A DNA stretch of 34,604 nt from Candidatus Andersenbacteria bacterium RIFCSPHIGHO2_12_FULL_45_11b. GTDB lineage: Bacteria > Patescibacteriota > Andersenbacteria > UBA10190. Shown in pieces: positions 17,761 through 34,000 of this stretch. The stretch covers positions 1 through 34,604 of the forward strand of contig MHHS01000006.1 of assembly GCA_001817115.1 (NCBI GenBank), in the 5' to 3' direction. Every line of letters begins with the position of its first letter. Position 1 is the stretch's first letter. A program made the translations under genes and the position numbers. The notes under the pieces were generated by a model that worked only from the letters and a program-made list of their open reading frames with translations, ran no database searches and was not told the DNA's origin.

Positions 17761-18771
17761 TCATACATATTCATTAGTTCGCATCTCATACTCACTCAAT
17801 ACTATTTCCTCAAGATTATGAGCACTCCCATGTTGCAATAGACCAAGATAGGAATTCAGCGTCGGCAGTTTAGGGTTTTCTTGTATTCGCCGCATCATAC
17901 GTGTAGTTGTAGCTGACCTAAGGCGACGATAGTTGGAAAAATGAACCCACCCCAGAAAATCTACACCCGAAGCAAGCGAACGAATATATACTTTGCCAGG
18001 ATGCAAAGAGAGCTGAAGAAGCTGCACTAAAATATCTTCTATCTTCGGTATCTGGTCTTCAAGCAACTTTCTATCTTCAGATAAAAACACAAAATCATCT
18101 GCATACCGGATATAGTATTTGGCTTTTAAGAAATGCTTTGCGTATTGATCAAACTCATGCATATAAATATTCACGAGCAATTGAGATGTGAGATTCCCAA
18201 GCGGAAGCCCCTTGCCTGGTTTTGTTGATTGGAAGCTGGTGATAATTTCTTTGAGGAGCCAAAGAATATCTTGATCCGGAATGTAGGTTTGCAAAATACC
18301 CTGCAATATCGACTGATCAATACTGGCAAAGAATTTTCGGATGTCGCACTTGAGAACCCAACATGTCTTTGTGTAGTTGTGGCTAGCTTTTTGAGCTACC
18401 GATTTGAAACGGGCTAGCGCTTTGTGACTTCCTTTATTCAGACGGCAGGAATACGAATCATATATAAACACAGAATCGAAGAATGGATACAGAATACGAT
18501 ATATAGCATGGTGAAGAACCCTATCCCTCACGCTCGCTTTATGAATATTGCGCGGTTTCGAATCGGAAATCGAAAATGCTTTATACGGACCATGGCGATA
18601 CCGCTTGCTAGCTAAATCTTCGTGAAGGGAAAGTAGGCTATCAATCAAATTTCTTTCAAACGCTTGCACATCAGGCTTGTTTCGTTTACCGTTTATAAAC
18701 TCCGCCCAGGCTTGAAGTAAGTTATCTAAAGAAATAATATTGGCAAACGTATGGCTCAATTGAATGCGCAT
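17761..18771 (-). CDS. DGR1 reverse transcriptase
   Basis: This 336-residue enzyme copies the template RNA into adenine-mutagenised cDNA. It has CDIRKFFASID (142-152, first catalytic Asp), GLPLGNLTSQ (188-197) with the SQ that marks DGR reverse transcriptases, YIRYADDFVFL with YADD (223-226), and LGW. No maturase domain is present, so it is not a group II intron RT. It is clearly paralogous to the RT at 31349 (same length, same motif numbering). It lies on the same strand as the TR and target gene but opposite to avd, with a 10-base G run (minus strand) 20 bp before its ATG. Confidence 0.95.
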   Translation of the reverse strand: MRIQLSHTFANIISLDNLLQAWAEFINGKRNKPDVQAFERNLIDSLLSLHEDLASKRYRHGPYKAFSISDSKPRNIHKASVRDRVLHHAIYRILYPFFDSVFIYDSYSCRLNKGSHKALARFKSVAQKASHNYTKTCWVLKCDIRKFFASIDQSILQGILQTYIPDQDILWLLKEIITSFQSTKPGKGLPLGNLTSQLLVNIYMHEFDQYAKHFLKAKYYIRYADDFVFLSEDRKLLEDQIPKIEDILVQLLQLSLHPGKVYIRSLASGVDFLGWVHFSNYRRLRSATTTRMMRRIQENPKLPTLNSYLGLLQHGSAHNLEEIVLSEYEMRTNEYV

Positions 18772-19191
18772 AAAAAATCATTTAACAATACCCCCCCCCC
18801 AGCAATAAGTTATCCACAGGGAGAATTACCACTGCTTAAAAAGGTAAAAAATGCTTATTTCCTATGGTATGGGCAGTACCAAATTTTGCCAAAAACTCAC
18901 CGACATACCCTAGGCAGCCGAATCGACACTCTCTTTATTACTCTCATTGAAGTTATAGCAGCCGCGAGCTTCATGCCTCGTCAGGAAAAATTACCGTATG
19001 TGCAAACTGCAATCCGCAAGCTTGATGCGATCAAGATTTTAATTATGATCCTTTGGGAAACAAAATCTCTTGATGACAAAAAGTATGTAATCATTTCGGA
19101 GCCATTACACGAAATCGGGCGCATGCTTGGCGGATGGAGTGGGCAACTTACCAAAGCTAAACAAGAAAAACAAAACTCCCTGCTTAGATAG
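18751..19191 (+). CDS. avd: DGR1 accessory protein Avd (four-helix bundle)
   Basis: Avd binds the RT and template RNA and is required for mutagenic retrohoming in known DGRs. The conserved core runs LPLLKKVKNAYFLWYGQY, HRHTLGSRIDTLFITLIEVI, AIRKLDAIKILIMILWE and EIGRMLGGWSGQL. The given ATG (18751) overlaps the RT start on the other strand and would place the C-tract in the coding sequence; TTG at 18760 is an alternative, and no start codon occurs after the tract. The equivalent gene at 32400 starts after the tract with TTG. The true N-terminus is therefore uncertain. The stop codon sits in the TR-RNA terminator hairpin. Confidence 0.85.
   Translation: MAQLNAHKKSFNNTPPPAISYPQGELPLLKKVKNAYFLWYGQYQILPKTHRHTLGSRIDTLFITLIEVIAAASFMPRQEKLPYVQTAIRKLDAIKILIMILWETKSLDDKKYVIISEPLHEIGRMLGGWSGQLTKAKQEKQNSLLR
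18791..18800. repeat. 10-base C/G homopolymer between divergent RT1 and avd1
   Basis: Ten C residues on the plus strand. On the minus strand the run falls between TTGCTG and TTAAAT, a possible RT promoter with a short spacer of about 14 bases. DGR2 has nine C residues at the same place (32382-32390). Confidence 0.9.
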
Positions 19192-19198
19192 CAGGGAG
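19161..19198 (-). terminator. Terminator at the 3' end of TR1 RNA
   Basis: On the minus strand CTCCCTGCT and AGCAGGGAG form a 9-bp stem (loop ATCTA), followed by TTTTGTTTTTCTTGT. It separates TR1 transcription from the RT gene and overlaps the last codons of avd1 on the other strand. Confidence 0.88.
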
Positions 19199-19536
19199 AA
19201 ATGAAGAGAGTTGCGGACACCGGCGAACCACCAGTTGTCATTCCAGTCATTGTCATTGCGGTTAACGTTCACATTCCGCTCGTCATTCCACCGGTTGAAG
19301 ATCGCCCCTTATATGAAGTGCCATCTCTATCATATCGCCGCGCGAATACTCGCATTCGGCTTTTTTTGTTTTCGGCATCTCAACATGCCCTAGCACTTCA
19401 TACCAAGTATCTTCATTTTTTAGAAGTTTCTGCGTAAACCGCACTATTGCAAACCGTGATCGGCAATATTCTGGATATACGGATACTGGATTCGGCAGCG
19501 GGAAACCTTGGTCGGCCACGTATTCGCCTACTACCA
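19165..19536 (-). ncRNA. DGR1 template RNA (TR1 RNA)
   Basis: A TATAAT box (19543-19548) with TTGTAT 18 bp upstream lies directly after the target-gene terminator, and a terminator closes the region at 19161-19198. This defines an RNA of about 370 bases that contains TR1 at 19211-19305. It includes a reading frame (19283-19537, minus) that stops at the TR edge and does not continue through the TR, so I treat it as RNA rather than a gene. The element ATCGCCGCGCGAATACTC (19334-19351) recurs upstream of TR2. Confidence 0.6.
19211..19305 (-). repeat. DGR1 template repeat TR1
   Basis: The 95 bp align without gaps to VR1 (19646-19740). All 16 differences are at T on the plus strand of TR1, that is, at A in coding orientation. 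In coding frame the TR reads asparagine-rich, for example RNVNVNRNDNDWNDNWWF. The first 25 bp on the plus strand (TTGCGGACACCGGCGAACCA and on) are identical in both and correspond to the initiation-of-homology end. Confidence 0.97.
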
Positions 19537-19542
19537 CGCATG

Positions 19543-19572
19543 ATTATAGCAATAAAAAAGCGCCGCATACAA
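19543..19572 (-). promoter_or_regulatory. Probable promoter of TR1 RNA
   Basis: TTGTAT (19567-19572), 18 bp, TATAAT (19543-19548) on the minus strand, immediately after the target-gene terminator, whose stem overlaps the -35 box. Confidence 0.5.
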
Positions 19573-19585
19573 ATGTACGCGACGC
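19552..19585 (-). terminator. Terminator of DGR1 target gene
   Basis: GCGTCGCGTACA pairs with TGTATGCGGCGC (two G-U pairs), followed by TTTTTTATT, 30 bp after the target stop codon. Confidence 0.85.
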
Positions 19586-19614
19586 GAAGGACTAAGGCCA
19601 AAGCAACAAAGTGC

Positions 19615-20253
19615 TTAGGACAAAGTTTCTGACCGCAAAGAACTCTTGCGGACACCGGCGAACCACCAGTCGTCACCCCAGTCACCGCCATAGCGGTAAA
19701 CGTCCACACCCCGCCCGCCATCCCACCGGTGGAAGACCGCGTAGCACCAGTTGCTTTCAGCATCCTTCCAATGAGTGGCATTGGGATGATCGTCGGCGAA
19801 CGCGGGATCTTGCTCGTTAACGGCGGCCAGTGAGTACGGATCGACGGGCTTTAATCCCCGCAAATCGAACTCCTTTCCGAGGTCGACGTCGTTAACGTAA
19901 CGACCAAGCTTGAAGAAGTAGACATCCACTTCTTCACCCTCACCGTGCGGCATGGAAGCAGCTACTTCTTCATCTACGTACTGATTGCGACCCGTCGCCT
20001 TCATTGCTTCCTTTGGAGGGCAGGTGCGATCGACCTTGACGCGACGAACGATCATACCACTGATCGCTTCCACGCGCATACGGAACACCGCGAACAGGTC
20101 TGTGGCGAATTCCGGCTGACCAAGAACAGTTTGCACCGCCTCGGCGTCGAATTGGCCTGCATGCTTCTCGAGCATTGCTCGATACAGGCCGACCGCTTTA
20201 TCGACTTGACCAGCTGTCGTCGTCTTTGCGGATGGGGTCATGATCTGTGTCAT
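19615..20253 (-). CDS. DGR1 diversified target protein (C-type-lectin-like VR domain)
   Basis: The 212-residue protein carries the variable repeat at its C-terminus (residues about 172-203). The constant part includes RRVKVDRTCPPKEAMKATGR, the GLKPVDPYSLAAVNEQDPAF and ADDHPNATHW run, and WCYAVFHRW, which resembles the C-type-lectin fold region of DGR targets. The VR reads YRYGGDWGDDWWFAGVRK where the TR encodes Asn at the variable places. There is no signal peptide or membrane helix, so the product is probably cytoplasmic or exported by an unknown route. The start at 20253 has AAGGAG 8 bases upstream, and the promoter is consensus. Confidence 0.92.
   Translation of the reverse strand: MTQIMTPSAKTTTAGQVDKAVGLYRAMLEKHAGQFDAEAVQTVLGQPEFATDLFAVFRMRVEAISGMIVRRVKVDRTCPPKEAMKATGRNQYVDEEVAASMPHGEGEEVDVYFFKLGRYVNDVDLGKEFDLRGLKPVDPYSLAAVNEQDPAFADDHPNATHWKDAESNWCYAVFHRWDGGRGVDVYRYGGDWGDDWWFAGVRKSSLRSETLS
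19646..19740 (-). repeat. DGR1 variable repeat VR1
   Basis: This is the 95-bp partner of TR1 in the 3' end of the target gene. Differences from TR1 are on adenine positions only and often change AAC/AAT codons (to GAC, GGC, TAC, TAT, GGT). The VR ends 9 codons before the stop. Confidence 0.97.
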
Positions 20254-31348: not shown

Positions 31349-32362
31349 CTATTCACTATTTTTTTCACGAAATAATCCGTACAAATTCAATACATCCTTC
31401 GTAAGCCGTTCCGTATTCCCATGCCGTAGTAACCCCAAATACGACTGAACCGTTTCTTCTTTAGGATTTTCTGCAATCTGCTTTTGCATACGTCTGCTCG
31501 TAGCTGATCTCAACACTCGATGGTCTGGAAAATTTACCCATCCCAGAAAATCTACTCCCGAAACTAAAGAACGAATATATACTTTGTCAGGATGCAGATT
31601 CAAACACAGCACCCCGTTTAAAAAATACTCTATCTTTGGAATCTGTTTTTCAAGCCATGCCCTATCGTGAGATAAAAGCACAAAATCATCAGCATAGCGA
31701 ACATACTGCTTTGCATGCAATCCATGTTTTGCATAGTGGTCAAATTCGTTCATATATATATTCACGAACAATTGTGACGTAAGATTGCCAAGTGGCAAGC
31801 CTTTCCCCGCTTCGTTTGCATGGAAGCTATTAATAATTTCCTTGAGCAACCGCATAATATCCACATCTGGAATAGAAAGGGAGAGAATTCCCAGTAAAAT
31901 ATTTTGATCAATGCTTGCAAAGAATTTTCTAATGTCGCACTTGAGAACATAACAAATTTTTGTATTATTATTGCTCAACTTCGTAGAATACTTTTTAAAT
32001 TGTTCAATTGCCTTGTGAGTTCCTTTATCTTTTCTACATGAATACGAATAATGGACAAACGTACGATCAAAAAATGGATAAAGTATCAGATATATTGCGT
32101 GATGTAACACGCGATCCCGAACAGTTGCTTTGTGAATATTTCTCGGCTTTGGGTCAGCTATCGCAAAAGCCTTATAGGCACCATGCTGATACGTATGGCT
32201 TGCAAGATCAGCATGGAGATCATAAAGATTATCAAACAGATTTCGATCGAACACTTGCACGTCTTTTTTATTTCGCTTACCCTTGAGAAATCCATTCCAT
32301 CCGCGTAGCAAATTATCCAAAGAAATAATATCTTTAAATGTATGACTCAATTGGATTCTCAT
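31349..32362 (-). CDS. DGR2 reverse transcriptase
   Basis: The start at 32362 (MRIQLSHTFKDIISLDNLL) gives 337 residues, matching RT1; the longer frame to 32518 crosses the homopolymer and avd2 and is rejected. CDIRKFFASID, GLPLGNLTSQ and YVRYADDFVLL (YADD 223-226) are at the same positions as in RT1, and GVDFLGWV is shared. I estimate about 60% identity by eye, so the cassettes are old paralogs or separate acquisitions of one lineage. It converges with the baseplate-J-like gene and the toxin remnant. Confidence 0.95.
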   Translation of the reverse strand: MRIQLSHTFKDIISLDNLLRGWNGFLKGKRNKKDVQVFDRNLFDNLYDLHADLASHTYQHGAYKAFAIADPKPRNIHKATVRDRVLHHAIYLILYPFFDRTFVHYSYSCRKDKGTHKAIEQFKKYSTKLSNNNTKICYVLKCDIRKFFASIDQNILLGILSLSIPDVDIMRLLKEIINSFHANEAGKGLPLGNLTSQLFVNIYMNEFDHYAKHGLHAKQYVRYADDFVLLSHDRAWLEKQIPKIEYFLNGVLCLNLHPDKVYIRSLVSGVDFLGWVNFPDHRVLRSATSRRMQKQIAENPKEETVQSYLGLLRHGNTERLTKDVLNLYGLFREKNSE

Positions 32363-32381
32363 AAACAACCAATAAAGCAGA

Positions 32382-32390
32382 CCCCCCCCC
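32382..32390. repeat. 9-base C/G homopolymer between divergent RT2 and avd2
   Basis: Nine C residues on the plus strand. On the minus strand they lie between TTGCGA and TTTATT, a possible RT2 promoter with a 15-base spacer. This matches the tract at 18791-18800. Confidence 0.9.
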
Positions 32391-32399
32391 ATCGCAAAG

Positions 32400-32762
32400 T
32401 TGTCCACAGATAATTTGCCAATCCTAAGCTGCTTAGGAGATGCATATAAGGCGTGGCATCGAAGTCTGCAAAATATGCAGAAGTTTTCTCGGTTTACCAT
32501 TGGCATAAAAATAGACATGCTGTTTCTTGAAACAATTGAATTTATTTTACTTGCGGAGTACGCACCGAAGGATCAAAAAAGCTCTATCATCAAACGGGCA
32601 AGCGGGAAATTAGACGCACTTAAATATTTCTTGCAATTAACTTCCGAGATGAGCATGCTGGAACACAACCAGTATATCCCTATCGCAGTACCGCTCACTG
32701 AAGCAGGCAAAATGCTTGGAGGATGGCAAAAACATATCAGACAAACAGCTCCTGCGCCGTAG
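32400..32762 (+). CDS. avd: DGR2 accessory protein Avd (four-helix bundle)
   Basis: The 120-residue protein shows the same core as Avd1: LPILSCLGDAYKAWHRS, FTIGIKIDMLFLETIEFILL, ASGKLDALKYFLQLTSE and EAGKMLGGWQKHI. The frame is closed by a stop at 32373, so initiation must be at TTG 32400 or TTG 32415; no ATG is available. It runs opposite to the RT and target gene, and its stop codon lies in a hairpin at the end of TR2 RNA, as in DGR1. Confidence 0.85.
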   Translation: MSTDNLPILSCLGDAYKAWHRSLQNMQKFSRFTIGIKIDMLFLETIEFILLAEYAPKDQKSSIIKRASGKLDALKYFLQLTSEMSMLEHNQYIPIAVPLTEAGKMLGGWQKHIRQTAPAP

Positions 32763-32794: not shown

Positions 32795-32916
32795 TTGCGG
32801 GTAGAGGGGAAACGACAATTCTCATTCCAATCATTGTCACGGTAATTCAGATACAGCTTCCGCTTGCCATCGTTCTCGTTCGCATACAGAACACGAACCT
32901 TACCGTTCCGGTCAAC
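32795..32916 (-). repeat. DGR2 template repeat TR2
   Basis: The 122 bp align without gaps to VR2 (33304-33425). All 19 differences are at A in coding orientation. The first 25 bp on the plus strand (TTGCGGGTAGAGGGGAAACG and on) are identical. Read in frame it gives NENDGKRKLYLNYRDNDWNE. Confidence 0.97.
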
Positions 32917-33060
32917 CATAGCGTGCAAGATAACTTCTATGTCACCGCCCCGCGAATATTCTTGGGACTGTTTCGCATTCGAGAGAATGATAACTCTCCT
33001 ATTATCTGCACCAAGTTTCTTCTTCAAAAGAATCATCCGCCGCACGCTAGGGTAAGCCCT

Positions 33061-33293: not shown

Positions 33294-33914
33294 CTAAGAA
33301 ACCTTGCGGGTAGAGGGGAAACGACAATACCCAGACCAAACACCGTCACGGCAACCCAGATACAGCCCCCGCTCGCCATCGTACTCGAGCGCAAACAGAA
33401 CACGAACCTCACCGTGCCGGTCAACGCAGATTTTCTGGGTACAGATGATGGGGTCTTCCCGCTGAAGGTTCGGATACGTTTCGCACAAGCTGAGAAAACG
33501 CGCGGGTGAAATCATATTTTTGCCGTTCTTGGCTTGAAAAGATTCCGCTCCGGAGCTGCTCATGCTCTTTCCGAAACGATCCAGCTCGATATGGATTGGA
33601 GAGGCATGCTCCTCTTCGGCCTCCACAAACGAATCGATGTACTGCCAGATCTCCGGATCGACGTAGTCGAACCTGCACCGCTCAATCCGATCTTTCCAAG
33701 TAAGTCCTGGAACGAATGGGGTCGGGTACGTTTTGGTCGGAGATGCAGAAGCAATCGGTGAAGATGCTTGCAGGGCGTGTTCCCACGGATTTTCTTTCCG
33801 TAGAAACTTCTTGAGTCCGACAAGCCATGCTTCGGACTCTTCACCGCAAAGTTTCTCGGTCAGGTCGTTGAGCGGTCCACGAACATCGCAGAGCGCAAGC
33901 CGAGTGTCAGTCAT
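33294..33914 (-). CDS. DGR2 diversified target protein
   Basis: The start at 33914 (MTDTRLALCDVRG) has AAAGGA 9 bases upstream and gives 206 residues; the frame to 33998 would begin at the transcription start and is rejected. The constant part has FVPGLTWKDRIERCRFDYVD and SPARFLSLCETYPNLQREDP. The VR covers residues about 164-204, reading RVLFALEYDGERGLYLGCRD and VWSGYCRFPSTRK, almost to the C-terminus. The VR domain is of a different subtype from that of DGR1 (CRFPSTR ending rather than WWFAGVR). No signal peptide is visible. The ligand is unknown. Confidence 0.9.
   Translation of the reverse strand: MTDTRLALCDVRGPLNDLTEKLCGEESEAWLVGLKKFLRKENPWEHALQASSPIASASPTKTYPTPFVPGLTWKDRIERCRFDYVDPEIWQYIDSFVEAEEEHASPIHIELDRFGKSMSSSGAESFQAKNGKNMISPARFLSLCETYPNLQREDPIICTQKICVDRHGEVRVLFALEYDGERGLYLGCRDGVWSGYCRFPSTRKVS
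33304..33425 (-). repeat. DGR2 variable repeat VR2
   Basis: It is the 122-bp partner of TR2 in the last codons of the target gene. Its 19 differences are adenine-specific relative to TR2, and its 3' end lies 10 bp before the end of the gene. Confidence 0.97.
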
Positions 33915-34000
33915 GACAGTCAGTCCTTTCAAAAAACTCTCGAAAACGCTGAATTCTGCCACAATGGCATCTATATGCAGGTTTTCAAAGAACTGCAATA

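Follow-up and report, generated by a model that had tools for sequence, protein, structure and literature searches.

In the BPP-1 diversity-generating retroelement (DGR) of Bordetella, the avd gene lies upstream of the template repeat (TR), and an essential spacer on the 3' side of TR recruits reverse transcriptase (RT) and Avd; when Avd is disabled in a BPP-1 DGR rebuilt in E. coli, activity falls to ~1e-9 (PMC12875486). The DGRs of the candidate phyla radiation (CPR) are placed in clade 2, are significantly less active than average and have targets without recognisable transmembrane or other conserved domains (Roux et al. 2021, PMC8144416). Contingency genes of Neisseria, Campylobacter and Helicobacter provide a comparison of another kind, with poly-C/G or short non-triplet repeats near the 5' end of an open reading frame and with switching shown within populations. 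DGR1, the element considered here, occupies positions 17,761-20,253 of a 34,604-nucleotide stretch (the window) of contig MHHS01000006.1 from the patescibacterium Candidatus Andersenbacteria bacterium RIFCSPHIGHO2_12_FULL_45_11b. All the parts of a Patescibacteria-type DGR are there and, as a DGR, it is of a known and ordinary kind; what is new is a leader RNA and a probable switch in avd. It is likely that activity in this otherwise complete type of DGR is gated by phase variation of avd.

The original prediction described the locus as a complete DGR, and RT, Avd, TR and a target bearing the variable repeat (VR) are each present:

17761-18771, minus strand: DGR1 RT, 336 amino acids, with YADD and LPLGNLTSQ motifs (Pfam RVT_1, 4e-21)
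18751-19191, plus strand: DGR1 avd, antisense to RT, in frame (ON) (bAvd 6e-11, DivGenRetAVD, frame analysis)
18791-18800, plus strand: poly-C10 tract within avd (poly-G upstream of RT), the proposed phase-variation tract (rarity in the genome; 130 of 153 relatives)
19211-19305, minus strand: template repeat TR1 (alignment with VR1)
19646-19740, minus strand: variable repeat VR1 (alignment with TR1)
19615-20253, minus strand: DGR1 target gene, 212 amino acids, VR1 near the C-terminus, without a family match

TR1 and VR1 align without gaps over 95 nt on the minus strand, and each of the 16 mismatches is at a TR adenine (13 A>G, 2 A>T and 1 A>C), as had been claimed; with adenine at 26 of the 95 TR bases, the hypergeometric probability of such confinement is ~1e-11. 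The repeat pair was recovered a second time by an independent search. The closest solved structure to the RT is 8ub7, the Bordetella DGR RT (E 4e-46), the next family being group II (2e-20). Adenine-only change together with a DGR-type RT had been put forward as diagnostic of mutagenic retrohoming, and the adenine signature holds both here and across the clade, where TR/VR pairs were detected in 133 of 151 loci and 2264 of 2332 differences lie at TR adenines; A>G is the commonest adenine change (61%, 1377/2264; 133 loci). DGR1 thus resembles the BPP-1 DGR in its RT, in adenine-specific TR to VR change and in a C-terminal VR. The Avd proteins are alike as well: the AlphaFold model of DGR1 Avd is a four-helix bundle that superposes on Bordetella Avd 4dwl with TMt 0.89-0.90 at 13-14% identity (Foldseek to 4dwl/8ub7). 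Pfam bAvd matches above its cut-off, and NCBIfam DivGenRetAVD below that model's curated cut-off. Some corrections apply to the original prediction. The avd gene lies on the strand opposite RT, its 5' end overlapping the RT gene by 21 nt, and the genome holds two further DGRs, one within the window and one on contig C29. Unlike BPP-1, DGR1 has its avd antisense between TR and RT, where it carries a frameshifting repeat.

How general is this arrangement? The survey comprised 159 unique loci, DGR1-3 included, drawn from 80 loci selected by RT from GTDB genomes and 80 from 380 Patescibacteria genomes; no near-identical but non-identical pairs occur among them. Gene order is near-constant (target, TR, antisense avd, RT), avd is antisense to RT in 154 of the 155 loci with enough sequence and never on the same strand, the distance from the TR end to RT is usually ~370-440 nt, and the RTs are mostly open. 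DGR1 appears to belong to clade 2 of Roux et al. (2021), to judge from its host and its RT relatives and not from a rerun of the Roux tree. Host group and targets without transmembrane or known domains are shared with that clade, as is lower activity in so far as it is reported for the clade.

In 130 of 153 loci, the avd ATG is separated from the Avd domain by a hypermutable repeat. Poly-C7-14 is the usual form, and (CT)n, (CA)n, (GA)n, (CAAT)7, (AGGAC)7, (ACAGG)8 and (GCCAGCC)6 also occur. The unit is 1 nt long in 107 loci, 2 nt in 19, 4 in one, 5 in two and 7 in one; units of 3 or 6 nt are absent from all 130. The Avd domain is in frame in 28 of the 130 repeat loci vs 23 of 23 repeat-free loci, and in 129 of the 130 the domain comes into frame with an upstream ATG when 0, 1 or 2 units are added, with a single phase in 113. 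When position is the sole basis for picking the ATG, 70 of 72 loci have that frame open as far as the repeat, vs 10 and 16 for the other two frames. All 102 out-of-frame (OFF) Avd domains are without an internal stop. The seventh RT codon, a histidine, usually supplies this ATG on its antisense strand, as in DGR1, where the ATG at 18751 lies opposite the RT His7 codon (CAT); this codon is CAT in 85 repeat loci and CAC in one, vs 1103 CAT to 728 CAC (60% CAT) for other RT histidines.

At C10, the DGR1 reading in frame is MAQLNAHKKSFNNTPPPAISYPQGELPLLKK, and in the AlphaFold model the repeat-encoded residues form a lower-confidence, unstructured tail ahead of the four-helix bundle. DGR2, the second element in the window, has C9, at which Avd and its ATG are in different frames; a TTG downstream of the tract is a possible weak start. 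On the RT strand, the G run (10 in DGR1, 9 in DGR2) ends ~20 nt before the RT ATG. Runs of this kind are rare: the whole 884-kb genome contains four G/C runs of at least 8, two of which are the DGR1 and DGR2 tracts, and the first 83 loci contain 69 runs of at least G8 at the tract site vs six G/C runs that long elsewhere in 639 kb. On the RT tree, where the signal is measured between species, neither the ON/OFF state (26 changes vs 25.5 shuffled) nor poly-C length (62 vs 62.2) has phylogenetic signal, and repeat unit length is inherited (24 vs 43.3). A DnaA-box-like sequence, TTATCCACAG, lies near the DGR1 tract at 18808-18817, with TTGTCCACAG as its DGR2 counterpart. One of the two remaining G8 runs of the genome, at ~1039-1046 of L233 (G000:C25:17500-19600), is just upstream of a csrA-like gene; it could be a Shine-Dalgarno-like run or another switch.

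Because a frameshifting repeat, a pattern of ON and OFF frames and a lack of phylogenetic signal for length and state are found together, avd is probably phase-variable, with DGR1 ON (C10) and DGR2 OFF (C9) in the assembled genome. Collectively, the avd loci carry the signature of a phase-variable gene, and we infer switching itself from that signature. Replication slippage would lengthen or shorten the repeat and so toggle avd between an in-frame (ON) and an out-of-frame (OFF) condition. Since Avd is essential for retrohoming of the Bordetella DGR, only the ON minority would mutagenise the target; if the dependence on Avd seen in BPP-1 holds here, avd OFF means DGR OFF. A mostly OFF avd would also fit the lower activity of clade 2 (Roux et al. 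2021). Likenesses to the contingency genes of Neisseria, Campylobacter and Helicobacter extend from the type and position of the repeat to the mosaic of ON and OFF states among relatives and the intact downstream reading frame. Those genes are mostly surface or restriction genes, whereas the gene putatively switched here is part of a targeted mutator and its host is a patescibacterium.

Several observations weigh against phase variation of avd. Tract variation was observed between species and not within a population, in contrast to the switching demonstrated for the contingency genes, and homopolymer lengths in the consensus of a metagenome-assembled genome (MAG) can be wrong. A start codon, mostly TTG, is found between the repeat and the Avd domain in 41 of the 130 repeat loci, DGR2 included, so that an OFF state at these loci may amount to a short or weak Avd. 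In 16 of the 130, DGR1 among them, an upstream ATG is available in more than one phase; in DGR1 a second ATG would serve at C11. The requirement for Avd in the Patescibacteria clade is carried over by analogy from Bordetella. Finally, part of the conservation of the avd ATG comes from RT, as the antisense ATG lies within RT-coding sequence.

Does the repeat serve the avd reading frame at all? The locus could be an ordinary CPR DGR in which the poly-G serves the RT strand as a promoter spacer or an element of the 5' untranslated region, avd starts downstream and nothing is phase-variable. In most loci ~20 nt separate the end of the tract from the RT ATG, and a TAnnnT hexamer often comes after the tract; these features and the 41 loci with an ATG, GTG or TTG between tract and Avd domain agree with this. 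However, no start codon follows the repeat in the other 89, and the same site accommodates repeats of 18-46 nt and units of 2, 4, 5 and 7 nt, too long for promoter spacing. The selective opening of the avd ATG frame and the in-frame state of every repeat-free locus also argue against a role confined to the RT strand, and the lack of 3- or 6-nt units points to the reading frame. Such an account is considered improbable.

If the reading frame is what matters, is the change made in DNA? Transcriptional slippage can arise at long poly-C/G runs, and RNA polymerase or the ribosome might slip on the tract in a programmed manner, which would give a constant low dosage of Avd at any DNA length, without switching. 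That the Avd domain is intact even though 102 of 130 loci are out of frame is in keeping with such slippage. Arrays of tetra-, penta- and heptanucleotides, however, are poor slippage sites for polymerase and ribosome and good ones for replication, and arrays with 4-, 5- and 7-nt units are present at the avd repeat site. Tract length and frame are moreover saturated over the tree, as expected of hypermutability at the DNA level. Programmed slippage is thus given little chance. It is very improbable that the DGR is decaying or inactive, with the frameshifted avd a pseudogene on its way to loss. The out-of-frame avd of most loci and the lower activity of clade 2 (PMC8144416) would suit decay, but the OFF Avd domains are all stop-free, disruption is restricted to the repeat, RTs are mostly open and the TR/VR adenine rule is strict.

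For comparison, a small and therefore modest control set of eight phage and nine other bacterial Avd-type loci was used. No non-triplet repeat is found at the avd or RT start in these 17 loci, bar an unrelated C7 in L217, and in the 13 where both genes were found avd is on the RT strand in ten and opposite in three (L219-L221). In L214 (G381:C17), a DGR whose avd and RT share a strand, (GA)27 lies inside the RT gene at 2591-2644, and the N- and C-terminal halves of RT are currently in different frames. From its sequence, the L214 RT may be phase-variable, and a second type of DGR may have come to this switch logic independently. In L215 (G381:C5), at 1444-1469, 3.7 copies of the heptanucleotide TAAGACA lie directly upstream of another avd. 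Five IMG/VR contigs labelled viral (L205-L209) have the Patescibacteria DGR layout and the leader RNA described below, with a G8 tract in L206 only; either CPR phages or host DNA under a wrong label may account for them. Patescibacteria-type DGR contigs also appear under other-phylum labels in a Spirochaetia MAG (L025) and a Zetaproteobacteria MAG (L083), where binning contamination is the probable cause.

The second new feature concerns the template. A separate template RNA had been proposed, which is right, but it begins ~230 nt before TR, beyond the TR coordinates that had been given. The RNA stands alone, with a 5' leader that covaries and a terminator-like hairpin of its own right after TR; its predicted ends, near 19536 (5') and 19165 (3'), give it a length of roughly 370 nt. 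Its parts are:

19543-19548, minus strand: TATAAT -10 box, putative promoter of the template RNA (TG.TA.aaTaa conserved in the 133-locus alignment)
19306-19536, minus strand: 5' leader of the template RNA, its 5' end placed from the -10 box (conserved over 133 loci)
19304-19414, minus strand: RNA domain of the 5' leader with covarying pairs, matched by model R1 at 62 bits
19199-19207, minus strand: post-TR strip TCTTCATTT, which pairs with leader AAATGAAGA (19410-19418) (9-bp perfect match)
19160-19198, minus strand: terminator-like hairpin and T run, CTCCCTGCTA/TCT/AAGCAGGGAG TTTTGTTT, which closes the template RNA (sequence, 133-locus survey)

The ~230 nt upstream of TR that begin after the TATAAT box are common to DGR1-3, and their conservation spans 133 loci. 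The alifold energy of the leader is -46.8 kcal/mol vs -0.25 +/- 0.44 for column shuffles. In the leader domain (45 sequences, 105 positions), double-sided changes occur at 19 of 20 pairs, and there are 270 double-changed cells vs 75.6 in shuffles, a signal that is lost when partners are slid. The R1 covariance model matches only DGR1 and DGR2 in the window and finds matches in 28 of 145 Patescibacteria genomes; run against DGRs of phages and other phyla, it matches none of them, and the six matches obtained in that test all fall in loci that share the antisense-avd layout. No credible RNA family from Rfam 15 was found at the DGR1 locus. A terminator-like hairpin is present within 85 nt of the TR end in 113 of 133 loci vs 23 of 133 control windows, and mostly starts 9-16 nt after TR. 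The strip and leader of the same locus pair over a mean of 7.9 vs 6.6 for mismatched pairs, which is moderate evidence because mismatched loci share conserved sequence.

The BPP-1 DGR differs in that its TR is not closed at once by such a hairpin and in the position of its conserved RNA element. With the conserved domain 5' of TR here and the spacer 3' of TR in BPP-1, the template RNA appears to have been rearranged. The 5' leader would take over the RT recruitment done by the 3' spacer in Bordetella, and the helix between leader and post-TR strip may set the TR 3' end for priming.

What does DGR1 diversify? The target has no match in Pfam, NCBIfam, PHROGs or PDB sequence searches. It had been described as lacking an export signal; that it is unexported and undescribed is not special, being usual for the CPR clade (PMC8144416). 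The AlphaFold model (pLDDT 76.9) is confident over the C-terminal two thirds. A comparison with C-type lectins, as had been suggested, returned several lectins among the matches, none of them significant (best probability 0.41, E 0.47), and a C-type-lectin fold is plausible for the modelled target; variable domains of this kind are common, though not universal, in DGR targets. An inverted repeat, CCGCAA-GAGTTCT-TTGCGG, lies just after VR, where BPP-1 also has one, although the feature is not invariant among DGRs. A VR-end hairpin (cruciform) was rejected as a feature of the clade (10 of 132 loci vs 12 of 132 controls), and because its frequency equals that of the control, the DGR1 repeat may be due to chance.

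The source genome (883,870 bases, 51 contigs) contains three DGRs, each with its own RT, TR and target. DGR2 spans 31.3-34.0 kb of the window:

31349-32362, minus strand: DGR2 reverse transcriptase (68% identical to the DGR1 RT)
32342-32762, plus strand: DGR2 avd, which has its ATG at 32342 and its core from ~32400 (the two in different frames at C9, OFF)
32382-32390, plus strand: poly-C9 tract in DGR2 avd (G/C run scan of the genome)
32795-32916, minus strand: template repeat TR2 (19 of 19 differences to VR2 at TR adenines)
32916-33022, minus strand: DGR2 leader RNA domain, model R1 (73.9 bits)
33304-33425, minus strand: variable repeat VR2 (alignment with TR2)
33294-33998, minus strand: DGR2 target gene, which carries VR2

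In DGR3, on contig C29, 19 of 21 TR/VR differences over the scored stretch are at adenines. An assembly gap of 17 N is found at the expected tract position, which is at most suggestive of switching.

The literature searched on DGRs yielded no account of avd phase variation or of a 5' leader RNA, a mention in Paul et al. (2017) or Wu et al. (2018) being possible, and for Patescibacteria and phase variation the only match concerns archaeal methylation. How DGRs are switched is largely an open question, and a binding protein that was mutated at each generation would lose its good variants. If avd is phase-variable, its repeat gives a simple answer, as most cells would keep their variant while a few diversify, and the lower activity of DGRs reported from the CPR would have a possible explanation. 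Mixed tract lengths, and VR diversity that tracks the ON fraction, would then be predicted in existing metagenomes. The leader RNA, a covariance family absent from Rfam 15, is useful for finding DGRs and for understanding template priming in the clade. There is a good chance that the DGRs of Patescibacteria constitute a two-tier evolvability device, in which random slippage in avd is the switch for a targeted hypermutator that works through a template RNA with an RT-binding domain 5' of TR.

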